From positions 1,178,001 to 1,242,000 of the forward strand of contig NZ_CP040812.1 of assembly GCF_006159205.1 (NCBI RefSeq): a DNA stretch of 64,000 bases, written 5' to 3'. Below the pieces are notes generated by a model. That model had not been told where the DNA came from. It saw only the letters and a program-made list of their open reading frames with translations, and ran no database searches. Within the stretch, counting starts at the first letter, position 1, and the number at the start of each line of letters is the position of its first letter. The DNA is from Antarcticibacterium flavum. Its GTDB lineage: Bacteria > Bacteroidota > Bacteroidia > Flavobacteriales > Flavobacteriaceae. Below, one piece after another: positions 18,233-58,625 of the stretch. Both the position numbers and the translations under genes were made by a program.

Positions 18233-18358
18233 TTTACCGTTTGCCGTTTGCCGTTTGCCGTTTGCCGTTTTCTGTTTTCTGTTTTCTGTTTTCTGTTTTC
18301 TGAAATCTGAAATCTGAAATCTGAAATCTGAAATCTATTTGGAATTTGGACATTGGAA
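18233..18358. repeat. Phase-locked heptanucleotide array, left of MITE copy 1
   Basis: Eighteen consecutive 7-nt units: TTTACCG x1, TTTGCCG x4, TTTTCTG x5, AAATCTG x4, then AAATCTA, TTTGGAA, TTTGGAC and ATTGGAA. Word changes never break the 7-nt register. It begins 19 bases after the M56 stop codon and ends at the inverted repeat of the MITE. Confidence 0.9.
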
Positions 18359-18359
18359 T

Positions 18360-18585
18360 CATTGTTGTCCGATTAAAATATGTGAAATCTTCCATAAACC
18401 TTTCTCTATATAGTCAGAGGTTATTTTACCTGCAATCAGGGGGTTGGTTTTGGATTTAAAATAGTTTAGGAGATTTCAAAATAGACAGCAAAATGTAAGT
18501 AACTATTTTTTAGGCACTCAGAATTTAGTCCAGGCTCTTTATTCTAGTAGCAAAGCGATCTAGACTCTTTTACCGGCCAACAATG
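18360..18585 (+). mobile_element. MITE copy 1 (226 bp, IS4-like ends)
   Basis: Non-coding element that starts CATTGTTGTCCGATTAAAA and ends with the reverse complement of nearly the same sequence (TTTTACCGGCCAACAATG). The same 226-bp sequence, diverged, lies at 50384-50609 and, inverted, at 28908-29131. Flanks ATTGGAAT / ATTTGGAAT are an imperfect target duplication. It is inserted in a heptad array. Confidence 0.85.
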
Positions 18586-18683
18586 ATTTGGAATTTGGAA
18601 TTTGTTTGATGTTTGGTGTTTGTTGTTTGGACTCACAACTTTCAACCCACAACCCACAACCCACAACCGACAACTGATAACAG
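18586..18683. repeat. Heptanucleotide array, right of MITE copy 1
   Basis: About fourteen 7-nt units, beginning with ATTTGGA words, passing to TGGTGTT and TGTTGTT types and then, still in register, to the complementary-looking ACAACCC/ACAACCG types. The strand composition flips from G/T-rich to A/C-rich in the middle. Confidence 0.8.
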
Positions 18684-18725
18684 ACTCCTCCCCTTCCAGG
18701 ATCCGGGGGGCTTCATCTTTTTTAT

Positions 18726-18733
18726 TACCTTTG
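18726..18733 (+). promoter_or_regulatory. -7 element for the 50-residue protein gene
   Basis: TACCTTTG fits TAnnTTTG, 24 bases before ATG 18757. Confidence 0.45.
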
Positions 18734-18756
18734 AAAGAACCGCCAAAACAAAAAAT

Positions 18757-18909
18757 ATGAAAAAGGCTTTTTTTAAACTGCTTTCAAAAGTAAATCAAAA
18801 AGTGCTACCCAGTTATTCAAAGCAGCAGCTGGACCTTCGCAAAGCCTCGAAGGCTCAAAAAGCTCTTATTGGCTGGAAGACCTGGGTGACCAAAAATTCT
18901 TTGGATTAA
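18757..18909 (+). CDS. Small basic conserved flavobacterial protein
   Basis: A 50-residue protein, MKKAFFKLLSKVNQKVLPS at the start and GWKTWVTKNSLD at the end, rich in Lys. Similar short proteins ending in a W-V-x-K-N-S-L motif are widespread in flavobacteria and are sometimes labelled SsrA-binding-like, which the length does not support. The frame is open 48 codons further upstream, but that part runs through heptad repeats and is not coding. It overlaps the convergent apt gene by 4 bases. Confidence 0.65.
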   Translation: MKKAFFKLLSKVNQKVLPSYSKQQLDLRKASKAQKALIGWKTWVTKNSLD

Positions 18910-19421
18910 TATTTCAGTAAAGATTCAACAGGATATTTCTTTATCCGCTCCCTGCCCTTAAGGAAACTAAGTTCTACCAAAAAGTTGCAATGAACTATGT
19001 TCCCGCCCAAATGCTCCACCAGGTTACATGCTGCAAAGGCAGTCCCACCTGTAGCAAGCACATCATCGTGAATTAAGACATTCTCCCCTTCTTTAATAGC
19101 ATCCACATGCATCTCCAGCATGTCTGTACCATATTCAAGATTATAAGCTTCCGAAATTGTTTTGTATGGCAGTTTCCCAGGCTTCCTTACCGGCACAAAT
19201 CCTGCATCAAGCTTCTCTGCCAAAAGGGTGGCAAAGAAAAATCCGCGGGATTCAATACCAACAACCTTATCGACTTTTATGTCACCAAGGTTATCAAGAA
19301 AGATCTGTACCGCAGTACGCATAGCCACCGGGTCCTGTAATAAAGGCGTTATATCCTTGTATAAAACTCCTCTTTTGGGAAAATCGGGTATATCACGAAT
19401 GTATTTCTCTAGATTCTTCAT
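18906..19421 (-). CDS. apt: Adenine phosphoribosyltransferase
   Basis: Salvages adenine with PRPP to AMP. The 171-residue protein has the PRPP motif VLIHDDVLATGGTA (near residue 115) and GIESRGFFFATLLA (near 57), and begins with the APT-typical IRDIPDFPKRGVLYKDITPLL. Length is normal. Single gene, convergent with the small protein gene downstream. Confidence 0.96.
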   Translation of the reverse strand: MKNLEKYIRDIPDFPKRGVLYKDITPLLQDPVAMRTAVQIFLDNLGDIKVDKVVGIESRGFFFATLLAEKLDAGFVPVRKPGKLPYKTISEAYNLEYGTDMLEMHVDAIKEGENVLIHDDVLATGGTAFAACNLVEHLGGNIVHCNFLVELSFLKGRERIKKYPVESLLKY

Positions 19422-19459
19422 AGCTGCAAGATAAAATTTCCTTCAGCTTTCCCGAAGCA

Positions 19460-20110: not shown

Positions 20111-20322
20111 AAGCTAAAATTTTTATTTTTATAACCCTTGAAAGGTGGTATACAATAGCAGGATAATTATTTTTCCCTGCATTTCCTTTCCGGGATCTTT
20201 TCATTTTTCCTTTCCAAGCTACAGAAAAATTAAACCAACGGCCGTTAATGACTGGTTAAAGCTTTAAGAGATAAACCCTAACCAAAATGTTTATATTTAG
20301 AGAAAATTCAAAATCGTTTAAA

Positions 20323-21609: not shown

Positions 21610-21684
21610 TACGGGCTGCACGACTTATAATTTTTAATTATCTTGCTCTTCTTTAAAAATAACCCTAATACTTCAGCAAACATA

Positions 21685-24081
21685 ATGCAAACAGTTTTTA
21701 AAAAATTCACCCCCCTGTTCTTCCTATTCCTGGGCTGCCAGGTAATTTTTTCACAGGAAAGCAGTCTTACTGTAGAACAAATTATGCAAGACCCTCAATG
21801 GATGGGGACCTTCCCTTCAAACATTCACTGGGCAGAGGATAGTAAGACGATCTTCTTTAATTATAACCTGCAAAAGGATCCTGCCGATTCGCTCTATAAA
21901 ATTAACCTGAATGCACAGGATCAAATTTTGAAAGTGCCTTACGAGGAAGAAAAAAAGGAGATCTCAAGGGCCGGGGATTATAATAAAAAAAGGGATAAAA
22001 AAGTATTTGTTAAGGATGATGCACTTATGCTGTATGATCTAAAAACCCACAATTCCAAAAAACTCCTGGAACTTGACGGTCGAATAGGAAATCCAAAATT
22101 CCTTGGCGATGAAAATAAAATTTCATTTAATCTTAGGGATAACATTTTTGTTTATGACCAGCAAACCGGGAGCCTGAAGAAGCTTACCAATATTTCCTCT
22201 GGAGAGAAAAAGAAAGAAGCTGCAGGCCTGGGTGCTAAAGATGACTGGGTAAAGACTGAAAATCTGGGATTACTGGAAGTAGTCCGCGAGAGGGAAGATA
22301 AAAAAGAGGCAAGTAAGACCTACAGGACGCAAACCCAGGGAGAGCCATTTACTTTCTATGCCGGTAAAAGATCTGTTTCCAATTTACAATTATCCCCAGA
22401 TGCTTCTTACGCCACTTTCACATTGATCACGCGTCCTGAAAGTAAAAGCACAGATGTCCCGAATTATGTGGATGCTTCGGGTTATACAGTGAACCTGCCT
22501 GCAAGAAGTAAAGTGGGAGATGACCCTACCAAAGTTGAAATGGCTATTTATGATATTAAAAGGGATACCGTTTATATGGTACAAACCGGAAACCTCCCCG
22601 GAATCCAGGATCTGCCAGATTATACTTCCAGTTATCCAGATCGTGAATGGGAAAAAAAGGACCGGGACCTCATCCTTGCGGGACCATATTTTTCAGATAA
22701 CGGAAAGCAGACAGTAGTAAATGTTCGTTCGCAGGATAATAAAGATCGCTGGATCGCACTGCTGGACCTGCAAACAGGAGCACTTAAAAACCTGGATCGC
22801 CAGCGGGATGAGGCCTGGATCGCAGGGCCCGGGATTGGCTGGTCCTTTAGTGGCGGTACCTTTGGATGGCTGCCCGATAATAGGCATATCTATTTCCAAA
22901 GCGAAGTAAGCGGCTATTCACATCTCTATCTTCTAGATGTGAACAGCGGCGATAAAAAAGCTCTTACCAGCGGGAATTATGAAGTTTTTGATCCTTTTCT
23001 CTCCAGGGATAAAAAACACTGGTATTTAACCACTTCTGAAGTTGGTCCCGGAGAACGCCATTTTTACAAAATGCCTGTCATGGGTGGCAAGATGGAGAAA
23101 CTCACCCAAATGACAGGAAATAATGATGTTAGCCTTTCGCCAGATGAGAAGTACATGGCAATTCTTTATTCGTATAGCAATAAACCCTGGGAGTTATATC
23201 TAAAAAGAACTACGGCCGGCGCTGAAGCAAAACAGCTTACAAGCGGGCAAAGTGAGGAATTTAAGTCTTATGACTGGAGAGAACCTGAGCTGGTACAGTT
23301 CCAGGCAGAAGATGGTGTGATGGTACCTGCAAGGTTATATAAGCCAGAGAATGCCAACGGCGCAGCGGTGATCTTCGTGCACGGGGCAGGATATCTTCAA
23401 AATGTCCATAAGTGGTGGTCAAGCTATTTTAGAGAATATATGTTCCACAACCTGCTTACAGATCTTGGTTATACCGTCCTGGACATAGATTATCGCGGCA
23501 GTGCGGGCTATGGCAGGGACTGGAGAACAGGGATCTATCGCCATATGGGTGGTAAGGACCTTAGTGACCAGGTTGACGGTGCAAAATATCTTGTGGCTGA
23601 ACATGGAGTAGACGCAGAAAATGTTGGGATCTATGGTGGTAGCTATGGCGGATTCATTACGCTTATGGCTCTATTCACAGAAGCTGAGACTTTTAAAAGC
23701 GGCGCGGCTTTAAGATCTGTTACAGACTGGGCACATTATAACCATGGCTATACTTCGAATATTCTTAATAACCCCAGTGATGACCCAATCGCATACCGGC
23801 AATCCTCCCCTATTTATTTTGCTGAAGGGCTTGAGGGACACCTGTTGATCGCACACGGAATGCTGGATGTAAATGTTCATTTCCAGGATGTCGTGCGACT
23901 CGCACAGCGACTCATCGAACTAAAAAAAGATAATTGGGAAATGGCTGTCTACCCGGTAGAAGATCACGGCTTTGTAGAGCCAAGCAGCTGGACAGATGAG
24001 TATAAGAGGATCCTGAAGTTGTTCAATGAAACTTTACTGGAGAAAGAGAGGAACACTGAGATGGAAAGAGTTAAGAGTTAG
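21685..24081 (+). CDS. S9 family (DPP IV-like) peptidase
   Basis: A 798-residue secreted serine peptidase from ATG 21685, which places a signal peptide at the start (MQTVFKKFTPLFFLFLGC; the Cys suggests possible lipidation). Residues ~50-540 form the DPP IV N-terminal propeller. The alpha/beta-hydrolase domain carries the triad: Ser 653 in GGSYGGF, Asp 728 in HGMLDVNVHFQD and His 761 in EDHGF. Family members remove dipeptides or act as oligopeptidases. The last codons lie inside a heptad array that reads through the stop codon. Confidence 0.93.
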   Translation: MQTVFKKFTPLFFLFLGCQVIFSQESSLTVEQIMQDPQWMGTFPSNIHWAEDSKTIFFNYNLQKDPADSLYKINLNAQDQILKVPYEEEKKEISRAGDYNKKRDKKVFVKDDALMLYDLKTHNSKKLLELDGRIGNPKFLGDENKISFNLRDNIFVYDQQTGSLKKLTNISSGEKKKEAAGLGAKDDWVKTENLGLLEVVREREDKKEASKTYRTQTQGEPFTFYAGKRSVSNLQLSPDASYATFTLITRPESKSTDVPNYVDASGYTVNLPARSKVGDDPTKVEMAIYDIKRDTVYMVQTGNLPGIQDLPDYTSSYPDREWEKKDRDLILAGPYFSDNGKQTVVNVRSQDNKDRWIALLDLQTGALKNLDRQRDEAWIAGPGIGWSFSGGTFGWLPDNRHIYFQSEVSGYSHLYLLDVNSGDKKALTSGNYEVFDPFLSRDKKHWYLTTSEVGPGERHFYKMPVMGGKMEKLTQMTGNNDVSLSPDEKYMAILYSYSNKPWELYLKRTTAGAEAKQLTSGQSEEFKSYDWREPELVQFQAEDGVMVPARLYKPENANGAAVIFVHGAGYLQNVHKWWSSYFREYMFHNLLTDLGYTVLDIDYRGSAGYGRDWRTGIYRHMGGKDLSDQVDGAKYLVAEHGVDAENVGIYGGSYGGFITLMALFTEAETFKSGAALRSVTDWAHYNHGYTSNILNNPSDDPIAYRQSSPIYFAEGLEGHLLIAHGMLDVNVHFQDVVRLAQRLIELKKDNWEMAVYPVEDHGFVEPSSWTDEYKRILKLFNETLLEKERNTEMERVKS

Positions 24082-24115
24082 GAGTTAGAAGTTAGAAGTT
24101 AGAAGTTAGAAGTTT
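24067..24115. repeat. Heptad array overlapping the S9 peptidase stop codon
   Basis: Seven in-phase units of the AGAGTTA, GGAGTTA and GAAGTTA types. The first two lie in the coding sequence and the stop codon TAG (24079-24081) is itself part of the array. Confidence 0.85.
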
Positions 24116-24178
24116 AAAACTCAGATTTATATATTAAGCCCGGAAGCGATTAGGTTTTCGGGTTTTTCTCGTTATCTA

Positions 24179-24243
24179 TTTTCTGTTTGTCGTTTGGTGT
24201 TTGGTGTTTGGTGTTTAGTGTTTAGTTTGGTGTTTGGTGTTTT
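24179..24243. repeat. Heptad array of TTTGGTG type
   Basis: Units TTTTCTG, TTTGTCG, TTTGGTG and TTTAGTG in register, with one 5-nt break. Non-coding. Confidence 0.8.
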
Positions 24244-24279: not shown

Positions 24280-24861
24280 TTCACGCAAAGAACGCCAAGA
24301 AAAAAAATGCGCAAAGGATGCAAAGACAAAACTCTTATCCCAATTTGGGCGCTAAATCTTTATCTATAATCCATTTACAATCCGGTGAATTCCGTCTTTC
24401 AGGATTTTACAATAAAAGTTTATCAGCAAGCCAAGCTTATGATTGGATAATTTCAAGTAGGTTAAAAGTTGAGCGTAATGTACAGGAGCCGGAGTTTCCA
24501 AAGATTTGATTTCTATTATTAATTTGTTTTCAACCAAAAGATCGACTCGGTAACCAACTTCCAATTTCACCTCTTTATAAAAAAAGGGCATGGGAACCTG
24601 CTGTTTCACCTCCAAACCTGCTTGCCTGAGGTCATATGCTAATGCATTCTCATATGCAGATTCCAACAAACCGGGGCCTATTTTCTTATGAAGCGGCAAT
24701 GCCGCTCCTATAGTTTTAAAAGAGAGTTCATTTTCAGTCATACTAATCTTTAAATATTTAAAATTAAGCTGATGTCACTATTTAAATGTGATACCGAAGA
24801 GTGTTTTCTCTGCGCCCTTTGCGTTAAAGTGCGCCACAGTCCTTTGCGTTCTTTGCGTGAA
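24280..24861. mobile_element. Putative cassette: GxxExxY gene between inverted TTTGCG boxes
   Basis: The two ends form an inverted repeat of about 20 bp (TTCACGCAAAGAACGC then C/A AAG) with one mismatch, and further CGCAAAG boxes continue inward on both sides. The only gene between them is the GxxExxY ORF. I see no clear target duplication, so mobility is inferred from the symmetry and from gene-less relatives at 46252-46487. Confidence 0.5.
24364..24741 (-). CDS. GxxExxY protein (PD-(D/E)XK nuclease-like)
   Basis: A 125-residue protein of the GxxExxY family. The naming motif is GPGLLESAYENAL (near residue 22). The core YRVDLLVENKLIIEIKSLE near residue 64 has the D...E-x-K arrangement of the PD-(D/E)XK nuclease fold, so a DNA-cleaving or structure-specific role is plausible, though no function is established. 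The family is scattered through many phyla. Here it sits alone inside a symmetrical repeat-bounded segment and is unrelated to the neighbouring genes. Confidence 0.88.
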   Translation of the reverse strand: MTENELSFKTIGAALPLHKKIGPGLLESAYENALAYDLRQAGLEVKQQVPMPFFYKEVKLEVGYRVDLLVENKLIIEIKSLETPAPVHYAQLLTYLKLSNHKLGLLINFYCKILKDGIHRIVNGL

Positions 24862-24932
24862 AAAATTCGTTCTCCTTTAGACTTGATTAAACTCCTCCTG
24901 GAGAGCTAATAACCTCATAACTCATAACTTTC

Positions 24933-46239: not shown

Positions 46240-46490
46240 GCAGTTGCCTGGTGATAGAAAATTTTTCACGCAAAGGCCGCAAAGTGAAACCGCAAAGCAC
46301 GGAGAGAAAAAATCCTTTGCGCTCTCTGCGTAATTTGGTGATTTGGAATTTGGTGCTTGGGTTTTGTTGTTTTAGCTGCCTGTTGATGGAAAATTTTTCA
46401 CGCAAAGTCCACAAAGTAAAACCGCAAAGCACGCAGCGAATAAACCCTTTGCGCCCTTTGCGTAAACCTTAGCGCACTTTGCGTGAAATG
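46240..46490. repeat. Two tandem TTTGCG-box repeats, one a perfect inverted-end miniature
   Basis: Two related units about 133 bases apart, each starting GAAAATTTTTCACGCAAAG. The second (46397-46487) begins TTCACGCAAAGT and ends ACTTTGCGTGAA, a perfect 12-bp inverted repeat around 67 bases with no gene. The words match the flanks of the GxxExxY cassette and the tandem repeat at 51-52 kb. Confidence 0.75.
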
Positions 46491-46853: not shown

Positions 46854-46955
46854 CCGACAACAGACAACCCACAACTGACAACCTTTCCAAATCCAGATTA
46901 TTCTCTCTCCTGAATTTTCAAACCCACAACCTACAACATACAACCTACAACCTCC
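46854..46955. repeat. A/C-rich heptad arrays
   Basis: Two short arrays of ACAACCC-, ACAACTG- and ACAACCT-type 7-nt units, the opposite strand composition of the arrays after genes. Between 46623 and 46853 only phrase-like repeats (CATTCGTGCATTCGTGGC) are seen. Confidence 0.7.
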
Positions 46956-47272: not shown

Positions 47273-48247
47273 ATGAGCATTTTTGACAAACGAGTTAACT
47301 ACAAACCTTTCGAGTACCCGAAGATCCTAACTTTTACTGAAGCCATTAACCGTTCCTTCTGGGTTCACTCTGAAGTGGATTTTACGGCAGATGTGCAGGA
47401 TTTCCATTCCCACCTTACTCCCAATGAAAAACAGGTGATAAAACGCAGCCTTCTGGCCATCGCGCAAATTGAAGTGGCAGTAAAATCATTTTGGGGAGAC
47501 CTTTACCTACACCTCCCAAAACCTGAATTCAACGGACTGGGTTCCACTTTTGCCGAGTGTGAATTCCGACATTCTGAAGCCTATTCAAGGCTTCTGGAAG
47601 TGCTGGGTTATAATAACGAATTTCAGCATCTTATTGAAACGCCGGTCATAAAGAAACGGATTGAATACCTCTCTGCCGCCCTGGCAAATACCAAATCAAC
47701 CAATAAGAAAGAGTACGTAACGTCCCTTATCCTTTTTTCAATTCTTATTGAAAATGTCTCCCTCTTCAGCCAGTTTGCGATTATCCTTTCCTTTTCCAGG
47801 TTCAAGGGGGTGATGAAGAATGTGAGCAACATCATTGCCTGGACTTCTGTAGATGAGCAAATTCATGCCAATGCGGGGATTTATATTGTAAACAGGATCA
47901 AAGAAGAATTTCCGGAGATCTTCAATGAGCAAACCAAAGAGGAAATCCTCGAGATCGTGGCCCATTCCATCGAGGTGGAAGCAGAGATCCTGGACTGGAT
48001 ATTTTCTGCCGGAGAAATTGAGCATCTTGGTAAAAGCGACCTTCTTAATTTCATGAAATTCCGCGTGGATGAGAGCCTTGTGAAAATAGGAATGGAAAAA
48101 CTCTATCCTGAAACCGCGCTTGGCAGCCAGCCCCTGCGATGGTTTGAGGAGGAGATCTATGCCAACAGCCTGGACGATTTCTTCGCCAAGAGGCCGGTAG
48201 ATTATACCAAGCATGATAAAAGTATCACGGCAAACGATCTGTTCTAG
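47273..48247 (+). CDS. nrdB: Ribonucleotide reductase small (radical) subunit
   Basis: Diiron (or dimetal) R2 protein that supplies the radical for reduction of ribonucleotides. In the 324 residues the metal ligands are visible: Glu in AIAQIEVAVK, Glu and His in AECEFRHSEAYSRLLE, Glu in ILIENVSLF, and Glu and His in SVDEQIHANAG. The radical Tyr sits in HSEAY, at the E-x-x-H-S-x-x-Y spacing of class Ia. There is no N-terminal ATP-cone. It is preceded by a cobalamin riboswitch and followed by nrdA after 62 bases. Confidence 0.95.
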   Translation: MSIFDKRVNYKPFEYPKILTFTEAINRSFWVHSEVDFTADVQDFHSHLTPNEKQVIKRSLLAIAQIEVAVKSFWGDLYLHLPKPEFNGLGSTFAECEFRHSEAYSRLLEVLGYNNEFQHLIETPVIKKRIEYLSAALANTKSTNKKEYVTSLILFSILIENVSLFSQFAIILSFSRFKGVMKNVSNIIAWTSVDEQIHANAGIYIVNRIKEEFPEIFNEQTKEEILEIVAHSIEVEAEILDWIFSAGEIEHLGKSDLLNFMKFRVDESLVKIGMEKLYPETALGSQPLRWFEEEIYANSLDDFFAKRPVDYTKHDKSITANDLF

Positions 48248-48309
48248 GCGGTAAAGGCTAATGTTTAATGCTGAAGGATGCAGCTTCAGCAGACAAAAAT
48301 ATATATAAG

Positions 48310-49977
48310 ATGAAAATACAGGAAGTAACAAAAGACAGGTTATGGTGGCTTAATGAGGAAAGTCAGCAAATATTAAACAGGGGATATCTTTTAAAAGGGG
48401 AAACCACCCAAGCGGCGATTGAAAGAATTGCCAACGCAGCCGCAAAACGCCTCTTCAAACCCGAAATGGCAGAAGCCTTTATCGAAATGATAGAGCGTGG
48501 CTGGATGAGCCTTAGTTCTCCAATCTGGGCCAATATGGGTACAGAGCGGGGACTTCCCATTTCCTGTTTCAACGTGTATGTACCGGATAATATTGAGGGC
48601 ATAACCCACAAACTGGGCGAGGTGATCATGCAAACCAAGATAGGTGGCGGAACTTCGGGCTACTTCGGCGAACTCCGCGGCCGCGGTAGTGCCGTGACAG
48701 ATAACGGAAAAAGCAGCGGTGCCACCAGTTTTATGAAACTCTTTGACACGGCCATGGACACAATCTCCCAGGGAGGGGTGCGCCGCGGGGCCTTTGCCGC
48801 GTACCTGGATATTGACCACGCCGATATTCGCGAATTCCTGGAGATCAAGAACATTGGAAATCCCATCCAGAATCTTTTCACCGGGGTGTGCGTACCCGAT
48901 TACTGGATGCAGGAAATGATAGACGGAGATCAGGAAAAAAGGGAGATCTGGGCCAAGGTGCTGGAAAGCCGACAACAAAAAGGACTGCCTTATATTTTCT
49001 TTACAGATAACATTAACCGAAACCGGCCGCAGGTCTACAAGGACCAGAACCTTACCATCCACTCCAGTAACCTGTGTTCAGAAATTGCACTGCCATCAAC
49101 CCGCGAAGAATCCTTTATTTGCTGCCTCTCCTCTATGAACCTGGAGCTCTATGATGAGTGGAAAGACACCGAGGCTGTGAAACTCGCCATCTATTTCCTC
49201 GATGCGGTGTTGCAGGAGTTCATCGCGAAGACAGAGGATAATTATTACCTCGCCTCTGCCAACCGCTTTGCAAAACGTCACCGCGCCCTTGGACTTGGGG
49301 TAATGGGCTGGCACTCCTACCTGCAAAAGAATATGATCCCATTTGAGGGGCTGCAGGCAAAGGGCCTTACCAATAAGATCTTTGAGGAGATAAGCGCGAA
49401 AGCATTGAAAGCCTCCAAAGAACTGGCACATATCTATGGAGAACCGGATATTCTTAAGGGCTACGGACAGCGAAACACCACGCTCATGGCCATTGCTCCC
49501 ACCACCTCCTCCTCTGCCATCCTGGGGCAAACCTCTCCGGGGATAGAACCCTTTAGCAGCAACTACTACAAAGCGGGGCTCGCAAAAGGTAATTTTATGC
49601 GAAAAAATAAGTACCTCAAAAAACTACTCGCTAAAAAAGAGATGGACACAGAAGAAATTTGGCGAAGCATTATGCTCAACCACGGCAGCGTACAGCACCT
49701 GCCCCAACTCACGGCTGAAGAAAAAGCGGTGTTCAAGACCTTCAAGGAAATAAGTCAGCTCGAGATCATTCAGCAGGCATCGGTACGGCAGCGATTTATA
49801 GATCAGGCGCAAAGCCTCAACCTCAACATCCCGTCCAATCTACCGGTAAAGGAGGTGAACAAGCTTATGATCGAGGCCTGGCAGCTTGGAGTTAAAACGC
49901 TCTACTACCAGAGAAGCCAGAGTGTTTCCAAGGAGTTTATTGCGGAGATGGTGACTTGTGCTAGTTGTGAAGCGTAG
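48310..49977 (+). CDS. nrdA: Ribonucleotide reductase large subunit
   Basis: Catalytic subunit, 555 residues from ATG 48310. The active-site cysteines are in LPISCFNVYV (near residue 80) and in SNLCSEIALP, the N-x-C-x-E motif, near 255. The radical-transfer tyrosine pair is in KTLYYQRSQ near the end, and the C-terminal redox pair is CASC. The usual N-terminal ATP-cone is missing, so overall-activity control by dATP through this subunit is unlikely; this short form is typical of flavobacteria. Control comes from the B12 riboswitch upstream: with cobalamin present the cell would rely on a class II enzyme. Confidence 0.95.
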   Translation: MKIQEVTKDRLWWLNEESQQILNRGYLLKGETTQAAIERIANAAAKRLFKPEMAEAFIEMIERGWMSLSSPIWANMGTERGLPISCFNVYVPDNIEGITHKLGEVIMQTKIGGGTSGYFGELRGRGSAVTDNGKSSGATSFMKLFDTAMDTISQGGVRRGAFAAYLDIDHADIREFLEIKNIGNPIQNLFTGVCVPDYWMQEMIDGDQEKREIWAKVLESRQQKGLPYIFFTDNINRNRPQVYKDQNLTIHSSNLCSEIALPSTREESFICCLSSMNLELYDEWKDTEAVKLAIYFLDAVLQEFIAKTEDNYYLASANRFAKRHRALGLGVMGWHSYLQKNMIPFEGLQAKGLTNKIFEEISAKALKASKELAHIYGEPDILKGYGQRNTTLMAIAPTTSSSAILGQTSPGIEPFSSNYYKAGLAKGNFMRKNKYLKKLLAKKEMDTEEIWRSIMLNHGSVQHLPQLTAEEKAVFKTFKEISQLEIIQQASVRQRFIDQAQSLNLNIPSNLPVKEVNKLMIEAWQLGVKTLYYQRSQSVSKEFIAEMVTCASCEA

Positions 49978-49984
49978 GAAAAGT

Positions 49985-50180
49985 GGACAGAGGGCAGAGG
50001 ACAGAGGACAGGGAAAAGTCTTTAGTCGTTAGTCTTTAGTCGTTAGAGGGTTTTCTGTTTACCGTTTGCCGTTTTCCGTTTGGTGTTTTGGTGTTTGGTG
50101 TTTGGTGTTTGGTGTTTGGTGTTTGGTGTTTGGTGTTTGGTGTTTGGTGTTTGTTGTTTGTTGTTTGTTGTTTGTTGTTT
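49985..50180. repeat. Heptad array after nrdA
   Basis: Starts 7 bases after the stop. Word order in near-constant register: GGACAGA, CTTTAGT / CGTTAGT, CTGTTTA / CCGTTTG, then about ten GTGTTTG and four TTGTTTG. One 8-nt slip occurs. Open frames that cross it encode 7-residue-periodic peptides and are not genes. Confidence 0.9.
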
Positions 50181-50287: not shown

Positions 50288-50383
50288 AAAGTTTACCGTT
50301 TTCTGTTTAGGTTTTGGGATTTGGGTTTTGGGATTTGGGATTTGGGATTTGGGATTTGGGATTTGGGATTTGGGATTTGGTGC
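50288..50383. repeat. TTTGGGA array with G-quadruplex pattern, left of MITE copy 2
   Basis: Opens with TTTACCG/TTTTCTG words and continues as nine GGG tracts (50316-50374) each separated by 4 bases (ATTT or TTTT). It runs up to the MITE end. Confidence 0.9.
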
Positions 50384-50609
50384 CATTGTTGTCCGATTAA
50401 AATATGTAAAATTTCTATTAACTCTTTCTATATATAGTCAAAGGACATATCAACATCTACCAGGGGGTGGTTTTGGATTTAAAATAGTTTAGGGAAATTG
50501 GAAGTTATGTAGCAGAATGTAAGTAACTATTTTCCAGGCATTCAGATTTAAGTCTAGGTTCTATATTCTAGCAGCGGAGCGGTCCAGACTCTTTTACCGG
50601 ACAACAATG
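50384..50609 (+). mobile_element. MITE copy 2 (226 bp)
   Basis: Same length and orientation as the 18360 copy. Ends CATTGTTGTCCGATTAAAA and, inverted, CATTGTTGTCCGGTAAAAG. Perfect 9-bp target duplication ATTTGGTGC (50375-50383 and 50610-50618), which proves insertion into an existing heptad array. Confidence 0.9.
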
Positions 50610-50670
50610 ATTTGGTGCTTGGAATTTGTTTGTTGTTTGTAGTTTGGTGTTTGGTGATTCGGTTTTTGAT
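50610..50670. repeat. Heptad array right of MITE copy 2
   Basis: Continuation of TTTGGTG, TTGGAAT and TTTGTTG words after the MITE. Confidence 0.75.
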
Positions 50671-51030: not shown

Positions 51031-52075
51031 CTCCGTGAAACTCTAAGCCTTACTCCGTTTTCTCCGTGGTTAGGTTTATTGCAGTAGGTGAGAAACAAAA
51101 AACATTCGTGGGCTTATAAATGGTTTAAACGTTTTCTGTTTACCGTTTACTGTTTTCTGTTTGAGATTGGCGTTTGATAAGTTTGATCCCTCAATGCGAT
51201 TAAAAATTAAAGAACTCAAGTAAAAACCCTTGGCGCTCTTTGCGTAAACCTTAGCGTGCTTTGCGGTTAAGAAAATGGATAGACCATTAAATATTTGAAC
51301 CATTTACCCTCCGTGAAACTTTACGCCGTACTCCGTTTTCTCTGTGGTTAGGTTTATTGCAGTAGGTGAGAAACAAAAAATATTCGTGCATTCGTGGCTT
51401 ATAAACGGTTTAAACGTTTTCTGTTTAGAGATTGGCGTTTGATAAGTTTAATCTATCATTGGAAGGCAGGTAAAAACCCTTGGCGCTCTTTGCGTAAACC
51501 TTAGCGTGCTTTGCGGTTAAGAAAATGGATATACCATTAAATATTTGAACCATTTACCCTCCGTGAAACTCCGTGCCTTAATCCGTTTCCTCCGTGGTTA
51601 GGTTTATTGCAGTAGGTGAGAAACAAAAAACATTCGTGCATTCGTGGCTTATAAACAGTTTAAACGTTTTCTGTTTACCGTTTTCTGTTTAGAGATTGAG
51701 CGTTTGATAAGTTTGATCTCTCAATGCGATTAAAAATTAAAGAACTCAAGTAAAAGCCCTTGGCGCTCTTTGCGTAAACCTTAGCGTACTTTGCGGTTAA
51801 AAAATGGATATACCATTAAATATTTGAACCATTTACCCTCCGTGCAACTTTACGCCGTACTCCGTTTTCTATGTGGTTAGGTTTATTGCAGTAGGTGAGA
51901 AACAAAAAACATTCGTGCATTCGTGGCTTATAAACGGTTTAAACGTTTTCTGTTTACCGTTTACTGTTTTCTGTTTGAGATTGGCGTTTGATAAGTTTGA
52001 TCTATTATTGGAAGGCAGGTAAAAACCCTTGGCGTTCTTTGCGTAAACCTTAGCGTGCTTTGCGGTTAAGAAAAT
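51031..52075. repeat. Four-unit ABAB tandem repeat (units of 250-279 bp)
   Basis: Units start at 51031, 51309, 51559 and 51838 with CTCCGTGAAACT (or a near copy). Each unit contains, in order, a CTCCGTG block, TTTATTGCAGTAGGTGAGAA, ATTCGTGCATTCGTGGC, a TTTTCTG heptad tract, and CTTTGCGTAAACCTTAGCG. Units 1 and 3 share one middle segment (AATGCGATTAAAAATTAAAG); units 2 and 4 share another (ATTGGAAGGCAGG). So a two-unit block of about 528 bp was duplicated. No gene inside. Confidence 0.9.
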
Positions 52076-52213
52076 GAAGACTTAAATTATTATATAAAAT
52101 GTTTTAGTTAAGTCCGTGGTCTCTGTAAGTTAGTTTATTCAGGACTTTAGGGACCTCCCTGATTGCAAATTAACCAAACCGCGTAATCCGCCTAAATCTG
52201 CAAAATCCTTTTA

Positions 52214-52740: not shown

Positions 52741-53634
52741 TTATTTATAACTTTTCAAAGCAATCTCCAGCTGCTTAATTATTTCCTTTTTTAAACTTTC
52801 AGGTTCGAGCACTTTTACTGTGTGTCCATAAGAGAGAAGTTCCATTCTAAAATCATAAGTGGGGACCAGGTAATACTCAAACATGTGTTCTTTTTTGTTG
52901 CACAACACCTCCTGCTGACTATGGTGTAGTGGCAGGCTGCTTATATATCTCCCCTCCTTCGGGGTAAAGGAGAGTACTACTCTTTGTGGCTCCTCCCCTG
53001 TGCCGTTAATGATCCCGAAATGATGTTCAAATTCGGACTGAACATTATAATCCTTAACAGGTTTGAAATTCTTTTGCAGGATCTCCAGGCCGCTCATCCT
53101 GTCCAGACCAAAATTCTTTACCACCCCTCCATCTTTTCCAATGAGATACCAGCGATTCCTCGCCTCCTTGATAGCTATAGGTATAACAGTTCGCCTGCTA
53201 ACAGCGCCGTCCTCAAATTTCTCATAGGTAAATTCCACCAGTCTCTTATGCCTTATTGCGTGCAGGAGTCCGTTCATATGCTCCGTTCCCAGGGCCTTGC
53301 GGTTCTCAAACAGCAGGTGATCGCCAAAACTGTTCCCTATTCGCATCGCATTGTAGAGGTCAAAAGTCTCCATAAGCCTTTCACTGTGCTCCTCCCTCCC
53401 ATCTTCAGCTATATAATACAGGTTACGGGACCTGTCATTTTTTATCAAAATATGATAATCCTGCTCAATCTCCTTTATATCCCGTTGCAAAGTTCTCTGC
53501 GAACAGGTTAATTTATCTTCAGAAAGAGATTCCTGTAATTCCAAAAAATCCTGGATCTCCTTAAAAGAAGACGGCCGTTTGGACAGTTGGTGGATGATGA
53601 ATCTGTGGCGTTGTATTCCTTCTCGTCTGGACAT
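52741..53634 (-). CDS. WYL-domain transcriptional regulator
   Basis: A 297-residue YafY-type regulator. A winged helix-turn-helix occupies residues 1-65 (QLSKRPSSFKEIQDFLE, CSQRTLQRDIKEIEQDY), and the WYL domain covers ~125-195, with the naming motif in ARNRWYLIGKDGG. A C-terminal WCX-like extension follows. Such proteins sense nucleic acid or nucleotide ligands and control DNA-damage or defence genes in some bacteria; no defence genes adjoin here. The upstream region is a heptad array that starts just before its start codon. Confidence 0.9.
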   Translation of the reverse strand: MSRREGIQRHRFIIHQLSKRPSSFKEIQDFLELQESLSEDKLTCSQRTLQRDIKEIEQDYHILIKNDRSRNLYYIAEDGREEHSERLMETFDLYNAMRIGNSFGDHLLFENRKALGTEHMNGLLHAIRHKRLVEFTYEKFEDGAVSRRTVIPIAIKEARNRWYLIGKDGGVVKNFGLDRMSGLEILQKNFKPVKDYNVQSEFEHHFGIINGTGEEPQRVVLSFTPKEGRYISSLPLHHSQQEVLCNKKEHMFEYYLVPTYDFRMELLSYGHTVKVLEPESLKKEIIKQLEIALKSYK

Positions 53635-53639: not shown

Positions 53640-53895
53640 TAGTCTTTTTTAGTCGTTTGTCTTTAGTCGTTAGTTGGATGGGTGTTCGGTGTTTGGTGTT
53701 TCTCCGTTTGCTGTTTTCTGTTTTCTGTTTGCCGTTTACCGTTTTCTGTTTGCCTTTGGAATTTGGAATTTGGAATTTGGAATTTGGAATTTGGTGCTTG
53801 TGGTTAATCCACTCGCTGACGCTCGCTTCTTTCTCTTTTCTTCCTTCTCACATCTCACATCTCACATCTCACATCTCACATCTCACATCTCAAAT
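53640..53895. repeat. Heptad arrays upstream of the WYL gene
   Basis: Order: TTTAGTC, TGTTTGG, TGTTTTC / TGTTTGC, ATTTGGA x5, then after ~70 bases CACATCT x6 and CAAATCT. The order TTTAGTC, TTTTCTG/TTTGCCG, TTTGG repeats that of the array after nrdA. Confidence 0.85.
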
Positions 53896-53978
53896 CTAAC
53901 AAAAGAATACGACAATAAATGTCGGCAGTTGGAAAAGTTAAAATAGAGGAAGAATGGATTGAATAAAGCAATTAAGCC

Positions 53979-54235
53979 CTGTTTTCTGTTTTCTGTTTTC
54001 TGTTTTCCGTTTACTGTTTAACGTTAAAAGATAATTACGGACAACCTATTAGCTAAAAAAACCTTATACCGTCAACCGACAACCGACAACTTTTTCTACA
54101 ACCTACAACCTATAAATGACAACCGACAAATTTTTTCAACCTACAACCTACAACCTACAACCTACAACTTTTTCAACCGACAACAGACAACCGACAACTC
54201 ACAACATTTTTTCCAACCTACAACCAAATACATAC
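53979..54235. repeat. Heptad arrays upstream of the 54282 gene
   Basis: CTGTTTT x4, CCGTTTA and CTGTTTA in register, then several blocks of CAACCGA and CAACCTA units separated by short T runs. Gene-free apart from the promoter of the next gene. Confidence 0.85.
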
Positions 54236-54281
54236 TAACCTCCCAAATTCCCCGTTACATCAAATATTCAAACCTCAAACT

Positions 54282-54914: not shown

Positions 54915-54922
54915 GCAAAGGT

Positions 54923-55135
54923 CTAATCCTCTAATTTTAGCTGTTTCTCCTTCTCCATAATAAGCATTCCAGATGTTGTAGGGGTAGCATCATCTGCCAC
55001 CACGGTAGATTTTCGGTTAAACACAAGAAGAAGGATGATTATGAGTACAATTGCAACTGCAGTCCAGATCCACCATCTGTTTCGGTTATCTTTAAATTCA
55101 TTCTTTTCTCTGTTGTCTCTATCTGTATTCGCCAT
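54923..55135 (-). CDS. Small single-pass membrane protein
   Basis: A 70-residue protein: a charged N-terminus (NREKNEFKDNRNRWWIW), one membrane segment (TAVAIVLIIILLLVF) and a polar tail. No family is recognised. It is convergent with the coiled-coil protein gene (8 bases apart) and divergent from the pyruvate kinase gene. Composition and a plausible upstream region make it more likely real than not. Confidence 0.55.
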   Translation of the reverse strand: MANTDRDNREKNEFKDNRNRWWIWTAVAIVLIIILLLVFNRKSTVVADDATPTTSGMLIMEKEKQLKLED

Positions 55136-55314
55136 AGTGCATATTTTAAAATATAGGGATCACATAAAGTTAGGAGTCCTTTAAGCATAAGCGAAATATT
55201 TAACCTTGTTTCACGTTTTTTTAGCAATCGTTGTAAAATTCCTACAGGGATCAGCAACCAAATGAGCTTGTCCGCTATTATCAAATTCTCTATCTTCAGG
55301 AAAGAATTTGGCTT

Positions 55315-56859
55315 ATGACTATTACGGAAGCTCAGATGAATTCTCTTATCCTTCAGCTTGAAAAACTGAAGGATGAGATTATGGACAGGGAAATTTCCTA
55401 TTCCTCTGTATACTATAAAACTCTCCCCCCCAATAATCTCGAAAGCGCGAGGAATTTGCTGCATTACCTGGCTTTGCGCAGCTTTGACCTGCGGCCATTG
55501 CAGGAGGAACTTACCAACTACGGATTGTCCTCCCTGAGCCACGCTGAAGCTTTTACCCGGGGTAATATTGAAAACATCCTGCAGCTGCTCTATAGAATTT
55601 CCGGCAGGGAGCCATCGAATAAATATAAAAACACCATTCCTATCCTAGATTATTCTTCGGGAAGAAAGAAATTACAGGCTAATACCACCGCGCTTTTTGG
55701 AACCCCATTTCAACCGGGCTCCAGAATTATGGTAACGATGCCAGATGAGGCCGCAGATGATACTACCCTTGTGGAAAACCTGCTGCTTGCAGGAATGGAT
55801 ATTGCCAGGATCAATTGCAGCCATGGCTCCCCACAACTTTGGAACAAAATGATCTGGAACATTCGCCAGGCGAAAGTTGCACAGGGAAAGAAATGCCTTA
55901 TCCATATGGACCTGCCGGGTCCTAAGATAAGGACTGGAAAAATTAGCTCAAAGCTCATTTCGAAAAAAAATAAAAAGAAAGGCCCGGGTATCAGGCTTTA
56001 TACCGGGGATATTCTTGAAGTATATAAAAGACCAGTAACGGGTAGCAAGGCCAGGCGAAAAAATGGAGAGGTCGTTACCCCGGCACGTATTTCGGTTTCC
56101 CTGCCGGAGGTATGGTCAAATGTGAAGCCGGGAGAAAAGATCTATTTTGATGACGGTAAAATAGGTGGAAAAATCATAGAGGATGCTGAAGAATTCATTT
56201 CGGTAAGGATCACCAGGGCCAGGCCAGAAAAGGGGAATTTGCTGCGGGAAGACAAAGGGGTGAATTTACCTGAAACAAACCTTAACCTGCCCTCACTCAC
56301 CGTGGAGGATCTCGAGATCCTGCCATTTATTTGTAAGCACGCAGATATGCTGGGTTTTTCCTTTGTAAGAAAGGCGGCAGATGTGGAGAGAATGCAACAG
56401 GAACTGAAAAAACTGAACCAGGAGGACTTTCCTGTTATTCTGAAAATTGAAACCAGCGAGGCCTTTAAAAATCTGCCGGAGCTATTATTGCAAAGTATGC
56501 GCAGCCCGGTTTACGGAATCATGCTTGCAAGGGGGGACCTGGCTATTGAAGTTGGCTTTACCCGCATCGCCGAAGTGCAGGAACAGGTCCTGTGGCTTTG
56601 CGAGGCGGCACATGTTCCCGTAATTTGGGCTACCCAGGTACTGGAAAATCTCCTGAAGGATGGGGTAGCCAGCCGGGCCGAGATCACAGATGCCGCAATG
56701 GCCGTTCGCGCAGAATGTGTGATGCTGAATAAAGGCCCCTTTGTTGAAAAAGCAATGAAGGCAATTCGAAATATAGACAACAGGATGATCCAGCACATGT
56801 CCAAAAAGCACGGTGCCCTGCGGCCGCTGAATGTGGCAAAGGATTTTTGGGAGAGGTAA
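55315..56859 (+). CDS. Divergent pyruvate kinase without C-terminal regulatory domain
   Basis: A 514-residue protein. Residues 1-135 form a helical N-terminal extension unlike normal pyruvate kinase. From there the catalytic barrel motifs appear in order: AGMDIARINCSHG, IHMDLPGPKIRTG, NLPETNLNLPSLTVEDLE, ILKIETSEAF, GIMLARGDLAIEVG and WATQVLENLLKDGVASRAEI. In ordinary enzymes these are MNVARLNFSHG, KIEN, MVARGDLG and TQMLESM. The protein ends right after the barrel, without the allosteric C domain. It may be an unregulated kinase or an enzyme with altered phosphoenolpyruvate chemistry; a canonical pyruvate kinase is expected elsewhere. Confidence 0.85.
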   Translation: MTITEAQMNSLILQLEKLKDEIMDREISYSSVYYKTLPPNNLESARNLLHYLALRSFDLRPLQEELTNYGLSSLSHAEAFTRGNIENILQLLYRISGREPSNKYKNTIPILDYSSGRKKLQANTTALFGTPFQPGSRIMVTMPDEAADDTTLVENLLLAGMDIARINCSHGSPQLWNKMIWNIRQAKVAQGKKCLIHMDLPGPKIRTGKISSKLISKKNKKKGPGIRLYTGDILEVYKRPVTGSKARRKNGEVVTPARISVSLPEVWSNVKPGEKIYFDDGKIGGKIIEDAEEFISVRITRARPEKGNLLREDKGVNLPETNLNLPSLTVEDLEILPFICKHADMLGFSFVRKAADVERMQQELKKLNQEDFPVILKIETSEAFKNLPELLLQSMRSPVYGIMLARGDLAIEVGFTRIAEVQEQVLWLCEAAHVPVIWATQVLENLLKDGVASRAEITDAAMAVRAECVMLNKGPFVEKAMKAIRNIDNRMIQHMSKKHGALRPLNVAKDFWER

Positions 56860-56868
56860 ATCGAGGGA

Positions 56869-57008
56869 AGTGGATAGTGGAGAGTGGAGAGTGGAGAGTG
56901 GAAAGTGGAGAGTTGGGTCGGGTTAAAAAGTTGTAGGTTGTAGGTTGTAGGTTGAAAAGTTGTCTGTTGTCTGTTGTAGGTTGTAGGTTGTAGGTTTTAG
57001 GTTTGCAG
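56869..57008. repeat. Heptad array after the pyruvate-kinase-like gene
   Basis: Starts 9 bases after the stop: AGTGGAG-type units x6, then TGTAGGT x3, TGTCTGT x2 and TGTAGGT x3, in register except one 8-nt unit. Confidence 0.88.
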
Positions 57009-57110
57009 GGTTTTTCTGTGTATTTAGTAGTTTAACCATTTAAGAAAAACTATGAGGCCTTTATTTTTGGGTTGAAAATTAGAAATTTTCCTTTAGCCGT
57101 CTTATACTGT

Positions 57111-57137
57111 TGTCATCCTGAACGACGTGAAGGATCC
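57111..57137. repeat. Dispersed GTCATCCTGAACGACGTGAAGG-type element
   Basis: TGTCATCCTGAACGACGTGA followed by AGGATCC, a short intergenic palindromic phrase found in many bacterial genomes. Nearby 57221-57245 is rich in GTATAC palindromes. No gene in 57009-57252. Confidence 0.5.
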
Positions 57138-57252
57138 CTACCTTGGATGCAGGTGGAAGTGATCGTTACGTACACAAAACACCTAACTATAATTAGGAAA
57201 CCTGCTGTTCCTAAAAACTGTATACAATATACAGTATATAGTATACGAGGAA

Positions 57253-57741
57253 CTAAACTTTCTCCAAAAACGACCTGACTTCAGCTTCAAAGACATCCAG
57301 AGGAATATTATGGGTTAGGCCCGGCAGGATGTGGAGGTGAAAATCTGTGTGCTCATTGTAAGCTTCAGCAATAAACTTTAGAGTTTCCCCTGGATTTACC
57401 ACATCATCTATGGCGCCAAGGAGAAATTGTTTAAGCTGTTTTTGCTCAATTTTCGCTTCCGGCACCTCCTGCTCTACAGTTCTTTCTGCAAGGGCAGGAT
57501 TGAACATAAGTGCGGGTTTATGTAAGGAAATAGAGACATAATATGCTGCAAAACCTCCCATACTGCTGCCTATGATCACATCTGGACCCTTCCCTTCCAA
57601 CTGCTGCAGGATTGTAGCTATAGCACCCGGGTTTTGGTAATAATTTACCTCGGGGCTTATTACCTCTCCAAATTTCTTAAGGATCTCTCTTTTTTCAGGA
57701 CTTAATTTACTATCCAGCCCATGTATATAAACGATCTTCAT
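57253..57741 (-). CDS. YqiA/YcfP-type alpha/beta hydrolase
   Basis: A 162-residue small esterase-fold protein from the start at 57741 (MKIVYIHGLDSKLSPEKREI). The oxyanion motif HGLDS is near residue 8, the nucleophile Ser in IIGSSMGGFAAY near 66, and the C-terminal His in PGLTHNI near 146. Thirty upstream codons in the open frame are unlike the family. Characterised relatives hydrolyse palmitoyl-CoA or p-nitrophenyl esters; the natural substrate is unknown. Confidence 0.8.
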   Translation of the reverse strand: MKIVYIHGLDSKLSPEKREILKKFGEVISPEVNYYQNPGAIATILQQLEGKGPDVIIGSSMGGFAAYYVSISLHKPALMFNPALAERTVEQEVPEAKIEQKQLKQFLLGAIDDVVNPGETLKFIAEAYNEHTDFHLHILPGLTHNIPLDVFEAEVRSFLEKV

Positions 57742-57876
57742 ACTCTCTTTTTTAATTCTATCAAATTTAAGAATTAGCGGCGTCAAACCACGTCGAGGAA
57801 GAGATAAATAAAAAAATCCCGCATCGGCCAATATTTTATTCTGAAGGAGTATCTTTAAGTATGAAAATCAATTCCA

Positions 57877-58476
57877 ATGAAAAATTTTTTATTGATATGC
57901 CTTTTTTCTGCACTGCTTTTCTCCTGCAGGGAAAAAGAAACAACAAATCCAGAACCTGAACCTGCGGCAGAGAATACTACTGAATTTAATAAGGAAGATG
58001 TGGCTGAAAAGGGAATGAAATATGCACAGACAACCCAGCAGTTATTGGCCCAAAACCTTCTTAAAGCTATTGGGGATAAAGGAACTTTACACGCTGTTGA
58101 ATTTTGCAATGTCGAGGCGATGCCCCTTACCCGGAAAATGGAGGAAGAACATAATGCCTATATAAGAAGGGTGAGTGACAGGAATCGCAATGAGAAGAAT
58201 GAGGCAAGCGAACAGGAACTGGATTACATTGAGCATTTTAAGGAACAAATAGCCACAGGTAAAGATCCTGAACCCATTGTGATCACAGAAAATGGCCGTT
58301 CCAGGTTTTACGCCACAATCCTAACCAATAAAATGTGCCTGCAGTGCCACGGCAAACCAGAGCAAATGAAACCGGAAGTAATTAAAAAGCTGCAGGACCT
58401 CTATCCTAATGACAAAGCCATTGGATACAGCGAAAATGAAGTAAGGGGAATGTGGAGTATTGAGTTTGAGGAGTGA
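57877..58476 (+). CDS. DUF3365 (Tll0287-like) haem-binding lipoprotein
   Basis: A 199-residue lipoprotein: lipobox ALLFSC with Cys at residue 17. The DUF3365 domain (~45-195) is the PAS-like fold of the cyanobacterial Tll0287 haem protein. It carries one c-type haem motif, CLQCH, near residue 151, so a covalently bound haem and a redox or gas-sensing role outside the cytoplasm are likely. Single gene; the heptad array begins 2 bases after its stop codon. Confidence 0.88.
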   Translation: MKNFLLICLFSALLFSCREKETTNPEPEPAAENTTEFNKEDVAEKGMKYAQTTQQLLAQNLLKAIGDKGTLHAVEFCNVEAMPLTRKMEEEHNAYIRRVSDRNRNEKNEASEQELDYIEHFKEQIATGKDPEPIVITENGRSRFYATILTNKMCLQCHGKPEQMKPEVIKKLQDLYPNDKAIGYSENEVRGMWSIEFEE

Positions 58477-58478
58477 TG

Positions 58479-58625
58479 GGTTGTCGGTTGTGGGTTGTCG
58501 GTTGTCGGTTGTTGGTTGTAGGTTGTTGGTTGTTGGTTGTCGGTTGTTGGTTGTAGGTTGTAGGTTGTTGGTTAAAGGTTTGTGGAAAAGTGGAGAGTGG
58601 AAAGTGGAGAGTGGATAGTTAGGAC
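58479..58625. repeat. GGTTGTN heptad array with one variable position
   Basis: Thirteen consecutive GGTTGTN units in which N is C, G, C, C, T, A, T, T, C, T, A, A, T while the other six bases never change. GGTTAAA, GGTTTGT, GGAAAAG and four TGGAGAG-type units follow, all in register. Starts 2 bases after the DUF3365 stop. Confidence 0.92.

Follow-up and report, generated by a model that had tools for sequence, protein, structure and literature searches.

Arrays of 7-nt units that carry several words are familiar from cyanobacteria as the short tandemly repeated repetitive (STRR) heptamers. Our subject is a set of such arrays in the spacers between genes of Antarcticibacterium flavum, followed outward from a 64-kb stretch of its chromosome, which we call the window (G000:C1:1178001-1242000, on a 4.35-Mb contig). 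The arrays satisfy the definition of heptanucleotide simple-sequence repeats, namely head-to-tail 7-nt units above chance and mainly intergenic, and they are of a known kind; the new part is their oriented, convergent arrangement, in which the G-rich strand points from each flanking gene into the spacer. On balance, we think it likely that they are simple-sequence repeats born and rewritten in DNA synthesis.

The literature used for comparison is PMC4679880, PMC4692102 and PMC7821994, and what we say of these papers refers to excerpts of them. Mrazek 2007, as cited in PMC4679880, found heptanucleotides to be the most abundant class in most surveyed genomes, and the proposal reported through PMC4679880 and PMC4692102 is that the 7 reflects a contact of the polymerase. 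Those repeats share with ours the unit of 7, the enrichment in scattered lineages, and an explanation by slippage with a 7-nt contact that had already been proposed; in-register word drift, word orientation and convergent order within spacers are unmentioned in the excerpts about them, and all are found here. Rehm 2015 (PMC4692102, which also cites a Calothrix heptamer case) describes GGGAATC and GGGGATT heptamers of Xanthomonas and Nostoc with heterogeneous units, lying mostly within 50 bp of stops (in sense) or starts (in antisense) whatever the ORF (open reading frame) direction, in stable surroundings, and mostly retained between the same genes in two species. That set was chosen for G-quadruplex potential, whereas our words are mostly without GGG (4 of 45 contain GGG or CCC, among them TTTGGGA at 50306), so that our arrays lack the GGG in each unit but share the orientation, a G-rich sense strand after stops. 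Rehm 2015 is both independent support and partial priority for the orientation rule described below. The TAACTGA direct repeats of MacGregor 2015 (PMC4679880), mostly before start codons and read there as a translational signal, are spacer heptamers like ours, but they form a system of one word, and no TAACTGA array is among our 45 words (464 kb sampled).

The first-pass annotation of the window, made from the letters and their ORFs, knew of no description for this group of bacteria. Heptamer spacer repeats are in print for flavobacteria: the same 2015 paper (PMC4679880) reports them from Gramella forsetii, Aequorivita sublithincola and Elizabethkingia anophelis, and for three Gramella/Aequorivita sets it notes that the spacers of close relatives are shorter and without obvious repeats. 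Our own cyanobacterial comparison is a Symploca genome (G179), the sole cyanobacterium sampled (none was heterocystous), where 7-nt arrays of this kind occur with mostly other words; in the first samples, 38 canonical words of A. flavum and 22 of Symploca have 1 in common. Period 9 is the second class of tandem repeats in Symploca among periods 4-12, an example being AGGGAGCTG; 400 kb contain 41 exact runs of it and 150 of period 7.

The ten arrays that the first-pass annotation had named in the window are real. For nine of the ten coordinates Tandem Repeats Finder reports an array of period 7 no more than 30 bp away, and the tenth, at 53640, has the period in a weaker form, since its first Tandem Repeats Finder row lies 41 bp on, at 53681, with TTTAGTC/GTTAGTC words readable from about 53643. 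The program adds arrays at 18643, 46856, 46921, 50078, 53755, 53846, 54068-54206, 56930 and 58589. A length of up to 18 units had been claimed, and the in-register chain at 18224-18336 counts 16. Autocorrelation in the window spacers is 0.327 at lag 7 against 0.269-0.288 at other lags from 4 to 13, with echoes at lags 14, 21 and 28; coding DNA of the window has no comparable lag-7 peak (0.260). When 20 stretches of 20 kb, evenly spaced along this chromosome, are added to the window (our main sample of 464 kb), the values are 0.309 at lag 7, 0.286 at lag 6 and 0.282 at lag 8. Counting exact self-match runs of at least 10 bases, placed mainly outside ORF calls, we find 59 non-ORF runs at period 7, while each other period from 2 to 13 has 2 or fewer and the multiples 14 and 21 have 24 and 17; inside ORF calls there are 12 runs at period 7 and 7 at period 6. 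Twenty fresh stretches give 118 runs at period 7, while none of the other periods from 4 to 12 exceeds 3. The sharp peak with many words that had been predicted is thus genome-wide, and the objection that the first-pass annotation raised against itself, a genome lacking such a peak, does not apply.

The arrays change their word by small steps. Leaving out arrays under 4 units, 266 neighbouring unit pairs in 40 A. flavum arrays divide into 121 that are identical, 99 with one difference, and 33, 7 and 6 that differ at two, three and four bases. The words had been called unrelated and the changes beyond what slippage could give; neighbours are mostly 0-1 bases apart, successive words are mainly substitution relatives, and stepwise in-register changes are found in the insect symbiont Portiera aleyrodidarum as well. 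The claim of one register over many words is not supported. In a phase test with ties divided among shifts, 16 of 23 touching cases share their phase in A. flavum (3.3 expected), as do 39 of 50 in Portiera and 14.7 of 16 in Symploca, while beyond 15 nt the agreement is near chance, being 3/14 at 15-60 nt (2 expected) and 2.8/16 at 61-200 nt (2.3 expected). Register is thus kept only locally, and words that touch are mostly related to one another. A hypervariable column within the unit, such as stuttering at a lesion would leave and as GGTTGTN at 58479 had suggested, was considered and rejected, the changes not being concentrated in unit columns, and less so than in a random scatter (sum of squares 173 versus a null of 193.2, sd 8.6).

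Portiera offers a test in a very small genome, 0.35 Mb in a whitefly symbiont, of which nine 20-kb stretches were sampled (180 of 352 kb). Exact runs number 94 at period 7, 19 at period 6, 9 at period 5 and 4 at period 8, and words drift in register, as in TAAACAG to CAAACAG to CTAACAG, or in three CTACCAG units followed by CTACCAT and three CAACCAT. Its spacer repeats thus resemble ours in the dominance of period 7 and in the drift, with the outward orientation missing; PMC7821994 terms them microsatellites, and the word heptamer is not used in the excerpts of that paper. The Portiera of Bemisia tabaci is there reported to lack dnaQ and to have a replication and repair set among the most reduced of such symbionts, and our profile search found neither an RVT_1 nor a PF13366 match in Portiera. 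Period 7 and word drift seem, therefore, to need little beyond core replication. Because Portiera shares both, slippage plus substitution is probably enough to explain arrays, and the Mrazek proposal of a polymerase contact fits this result. The earlier suggestion that a copying mechanism sets the 7-nt period is supported as probable. The basis of the 7-nt preference in long bacterial simple-sequence repeats appears unsettled in the excerpted literature; a small symbiont genome with like period and drift points to the core replisome, so that a reconstituted system could serve to test the question.

The main point of interest is how the arrays are oriented, a feature that the first-pass annotation had not remarked on. 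ORFs were called mechanically, those more than 10 percent array were dropped from context tests, arrays with N were dropped, and sign tests also drop arrays with |G-C|/(G+C) below 0.3. The A. flavum set is 45 stretches, including 4 chosen for CAACNNA hits, with unbiased subsets counted apart in some tests; apart from those 4, A. flavum and Symploca were sampled without choosing a word. Twenty fresh A. flavum stretches serve as a hold-out, and Symploca likewise has one. In hold-out arrays nearest a 3' end, the G-rich strand runs outward from the gene in 40 versus 17 cases in A. flavum (p 0.003) and in 54 versus 17 in Symploca. Over all samples, arrays flush with a 3' end (-15 to 25 bp) have G>C on the coding strand in 22 of 24 A. 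flavum cases (0 C>G, 2 ties) and 59 of 60 in Symploca (1 C>G). Words without a coding-strand stop cannot create the ORF end, so in that subset ORF-calling bias is avoided, and there G>C is found in 8/10 for A. flavum (2 ties, 0 C>G) and 19/20 for Symploca. Within 100 bp of a border, outward G is seen in 21 versus 1 A. flavum hold-out arrays and in 14 versus 4 arrays of the Saprospiraceae genome G180. Individual words keep an orientation too: within 100 bp of borders, majority and minority are 63 versus 6 in A. flavum and 107 versus 17 in Symploca, counts in which each word's majority is scored as agreement, so that chance alone exceeds half.

The order of arrays inside a spacer is independent of exact ORF ends and gives the same answer. 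Neighbouring arrays of opposite sign stand G-then-C in 11 versus 1 cases in the unbiased A. flavum stretches, 6 versus 1 in the chosen ones and 34 versus 1 in Symploca. Whole spacers with at least 2 signed arrays read G..C in 16 A. flavum cases, with 1 C..G, 2 mixed and 16 of a single sign (16/19 of the two-sign spacers), and in 30 Symploca cases, with 0 C..G, 1 mixed and 7 of a single sign (30/31). By gene pair, convergent, tandem and divergent, the G..C spacers number 6, 6 and 4 in A. flavum and 13, 12 and 5 in Symploca. The G-rich strand hence runs 5' to 3' away from each flanking gene, whatever the direction of that gene. Loci found elsewhere through the word AACCTAC lean alike when pooled, with G..C in 14 versus 3 and flush 3' ends in 22 versus 7. 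The orientation holds here for ordinary words and in every gene arrangement, and in the excerpted literature we found it stated only for heptamers of the G-quadruplex type. One TAACTGA set of Flexibacter litoralis sits directly after a stop in reverse orientation (PMC4679880), which, as we read it, fits the outward rule. Since gene direction is irrelevant, transcription is unlikely as the cause, and R-loops or transcription behind the G skew were rejected on the equal order at convergent, tandem and divergent spacers. Converging arrays carry the same word inverted in 1 of 17 A. flavum pairs and 2 of 34 Symploca pairs, both at chance, so that in these two genomes they are neither stem arms nor snap-back copies. 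Hairpin or terminator arms were set aside because the converging words there are no more alike than random; at the AACCTAC-found loci they are more alike, with 10 of 14 pairs agreeing at six or all seven bases (0.44 expected). Neither the direction of transcription nor RNA stems readily explain the orientation, and it constrains how spacers get rewritten.

Array load and lexicon differ between genomes. Of 149 genomes from the family, counting that of the window, 37 contain 3.5 copies of CAACNNA in tandem, with 372 matches in the window's genome (3 for the reversed control) and 44 in the next highest. Five of the 15 congeners were sampled in four 20-kb stretches (80 kb) each for runs of at least 9 bases, of which our 464 kb contain 28 in the window and 52 in the other stretches. 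Congener G001 has 48, mostly in one stretch and of words quite unlike ours (GGCTGTA, GCTTATA, TGAATGG), and G002, G003, G005 and G013 have 1, 2, 0 and 1. Arrays of these three G001 words make up an island of about 10 kb at G001:C2 1503071-1513759 (L248:3071-13759), whose start is some 2 kb away from a GxxExxY gene. In A. flavum a spacer of about 850 bp separates the DPP-IV-like gene from the RtcB-like one, and the matched gene parts lie about 80 bp (G003) and 130 bp (G013) apart. The stop of the DPP-IV-like gene here sits inside an array (window 24040-24120) and its C-terminus is longer than in G003 and G013, where a reading of the DNA puts the stop nine or ten codons earlier. In a collection with one genome per species, at least 117 stretches contain four tandem copies of AACCTAC; among the 80 loci listed are, going by their titles, Bacteroidota, Patescibacteria, Planctomycetota, Desulfobacterales and Acidobacteria, and also a cyanobacterium, Gammaproteobacteria and Portiera.

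An origin in DNA synthesis can be laid out in steps. A 3' end may slip 7 nt back on its template and recopy the unit, the 7 presumably being set by the ordinary replication machinery and not by the word. Single units would then be substituted and the changed unit multiplied by slippage, the pattern that the unit pairs display, with the outcome that the word drifts, the period stays and phase survives only while arrays touch. Bursts of this are specific to lineages as a pattern in our sample, two congeners having different words. At the borders, words are oriented with the G-rich strand 5' to 3' from gene into spacer, and the cause may be growth at 3' ends that face inward on either side of the spacer, as happens when a gap or a break is repaired, while the flanking genes would stay intact through selection. 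Because the spacer is symmetric, bounded on both sides by conserved genes with one 3' end per side pointing inward, extension of inward 3' ends is the simplest reading; we infer, as an unproven step, that these ends are extended, with the G-rich strand as the extended one, until the gap closes. No special writing machinery seems to be required for the arrays.

Several observations weigh against this account. The genome keeps mutS and dnaQ-family genes, as congeners do, so that loss of either, considered as the cause of the burst, was rejected and another trigger is needed. Locus pairs sharing a word number 46 in A. flavum versus 4.4 simulated, a skew exceeding local seeds; the figures elsewhere are 104 versus 23 in Portiera and 72 versus 2 in Symploca. 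Portiera has no outward orientation, or an opposite one (6 outward-G versus 17 at 3' ends), its words near borders are split 17 versus 10 between majority and minority, and its opposite-sign neighbours are G-then-C in 2 versus 0; having period and drift without orientation, it indicates that the orientation needs something more than slippage. Word orientation is looser without the distance limit, 118 versus 43 in A. flavum and 122 versus 31 in Symploca. Among arrays that lie at least 25 bp from a 3' end, the A. flavum hold-out follows the rule weakly (30 versus 17, p 0.08) and the Symploca hold-out does not follow it (15 versus 16). Borders free of arrays have some outward lean as well, though not all of them, in A. 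flavum 104 versus 52 at 5' ends and 49 versus 49 at 3' ends, and in Symploca 36 versus 26 and 38 versus 16, respectively, though arrays within 100 bp of a border exceed them in both (A. flavum 37 versus 2, Fisher p 7e-6; Symploca 105 versus 16, Fisher p 4e-5). Arrays of other periods at borders, though few, show a similar lean (Symploca 12 versus 4, A. flavum 1 versus 0), so the orientation rule may not be special to 7. Finally, any age gradient inside arrays is inconsistent across genomes: with arrays under 35 bp or invariant left out, there are more mismatches in the 5' half in A. flavum (51 versus 32, p 0.048), and the counts are 28 versus 30 in Symploca and 15 versus 11 in Portiera.

Mechanical ORF calling could itself create an outward lean, stops being without C and starts having G, and we find it distinctly unlikely that the orientation is such an artefact. 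The 5'-end flush test is confounded because start-codon calling shapes ORF starts, and its immune words are few and conflicting (2 contrary in A. flavum, 3 in favour in Symploca); the loss of the 3' effect at 25 bp or more in the Symploca hold-out points the same way, and part of the flush set consists of words with a coding-strand stop. Words without that stop, however, are still G>C in 27 of 30 cases over the two genomes (1 C>G, 2 ties), the order inside spacers holds as well, and Rehm 2015 reports a like orientation using database-annotated ORFs (PMC4692102). Selection for regulatory or terminator elements, for RNA stems or for sites of a protein that reads 7 nt is an even weaker candidate, and we rate it very unlikely. 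It would agree with the placement in the first A. flavum sample, where 14 arrays lay within 30 bp of 3' ends and 1 of a 5' end and where convergent spacers held arrays in 9/37, tandem in 12/181 and divergent in 4/49, a preference that weakened later (12 versus 8 in the A. flavum hold-out; 16 versus 13 and 40 versus 23 in Symploca). The likeness of converging arrays at the AACCTAC-found loci and the report that most Xanthomonas repeats are transcribed (Rehm 2015, PMC4692102) would agree with it also. Yet the converging words of A. flavum and Symploca are unrelated, leaving no stems there, the orientation is indifferent to gene direction, two congeners have different words, and of the five congeners that were sampled four are nearly array-free.

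Mobile elements, or ectopic recombination from one array to another, could have spread the arrays, which would account for words recurring at many loci, and MacGregor 2015 suggested a role in rearrangement (PMC4679880). A dispersed element of about 230 bp has 43 matches in the genome, some partial, several with arrays at their ends. We nevertheless hold this explanation to be unlikely: the element copies carry no constant array (one lies within 60 bp at 12 of 30 examined, and two of these 12 are a single locus that was assembled twice), spacers have unrelated words on their two sides in A. flavum and Symploca, and Portiera reuses words as well. The element itself, at window 18356-18590 and 50384-50614 with ends CATTGTTGTCCG and CGGACAACAATG, appears to have inserted into heptamer arrays, leaving short duplications on its flanks. 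At telomeres, too, the G-rich strand points outward. A reverse transcriptase or telomerase-like enzyme writing heptamers from an RNA template at DNA ends would thus suit our outward polarity, the reuse of words at many loci in a preferred orientation, and the 6 RVT_1 matches of the A. flavum genome, and still it is highly improbable. Among 13 genomes searched, the array-bearing Portiera, G178, G181, G189 and G190 have no match to the RVT_1 profile, which would miss some reverse transcriptases; the array-poor G002 has 16 matches; and within 100 bp of borders the loci of G178, G181, G189 and G190 are oriented all the same, 14 versus 3. A reverse transcriptase or a GxxExxY (PF13366) nuclease as required partner was rejected, both being without match in Portiera and G190.

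The DNA-synthesis reading has a wider form, in which the arrays would be scars of a general bacterial healing of ends and gaps, 3' ends from gene borders being lengthened in 7-nt steps from both sides; we advance it tentatively and consider it rather unlikely. If true, rewritten spacers would hold two converging arrays of unrelated words, and the outward-G rule would be a telomere-like polarity without a dedicated telomerase, common to Bacteroidota, cyanobacteria and, by published data, Xanthomonas.

Table 1. Heptanucleotide arrays of the window, with positions counted from its first letter (dot, no strand assigned).
Position	Strand	Words	Remarks
18224..18336	.	GTTTACC/GTTTGCC, then GTTTTCT, then GAAATCT	16-unit in-register array; starts about 10 bp past stop of M56/SusC-like gene 15733-18213
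18586..18629	+	ATTTGGA, then TGTTTGN	G-rich strand +
18643..18681	-	CAACCCA/CAACCGA/CAACTGA	G-rich strand -; converges with arrays 18586-18629
24066..24114	+	AAGAGTT/AGGAGTT/AGAAGTT	Overlaps stop of DPP-IV-like gene 21643-24081
24185..24242	+	GTTTGGT/GTTTAGT	One 2-nt register break
46856..46953	-	CAACAGA/CAACCCA/CAACTGA and CAACCTA/CAACATA	Upstream of ribonucleotide reductase genes
49988..50180	+	GGACAGA, AGTCTTT/AGTCGTT, GTTTTCT-type, TTTGGTG x9, TTTGTTG x4	Begin 10 bp past stop of 48268-49977
50306..50380	+	TTTGGGA, about 10 units	Runs up to dispersed element
50626..50656	+	TTGTTTG-type	On far side of dispersed element
53640..53794	+	TTAGTCN (weak), GGTGTTT, GTTTNNN, TTTGGAA	Adjoin WYL-domain gene 52741-53634
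53846..53897	-	TCTCACA	
53979..54020	.	CTGTTTT/CTGTTTA	G/C sign not clear
54068..54225	-	CAACCGA, CAACCTA, CAACAGA	G-rich strand -; spacer reads G..C, between divergent gene pair
56869..57004	+	AGTGGAN, then GTTGTAG/GTTGTCT	Start 9 bp past pyruvate-kinase-like gene 55315-56859
58479..58619	+	GGTTGTN x13 (N = A, C, G or T), then AGTGGAN	Start 2 bp past stop of 57877-58476

Other features of the locus and genome deserve mention. The contig ends, G000:C1:1-34640 and 4319058-4353683, share an overlap of about 34.6 kb that is 99.7 percent identical, with 2 mismatches and 89 gap openings, the differences being nearly all short indels, so this is apparently an uncircularised long-read assembly; the duplicated end holds two short arrays only, the same in both copies, and is uninformative on array change. 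Phrases of CTTTGCG and CGCAAAG occur in the window at 24280-24330, 24808-24870, 46270-46480 and 51220-52076, and inverted copies flank the GxxExxY (PF13366) gene at 24364-24741. A 250-bp unit containing CATTCGTG and CTTTGCG phrases is present in about three copies at 51220-52076. The ribonucleotide reductase pair at 47273-49977 has array-dense spacers. Among the 15 congeners searched with its large subunit, the best near-full-length match has 34 percent identity and two gave none, while a 77 percent match is found in another family of the order, and hence the pair was probably acquired.

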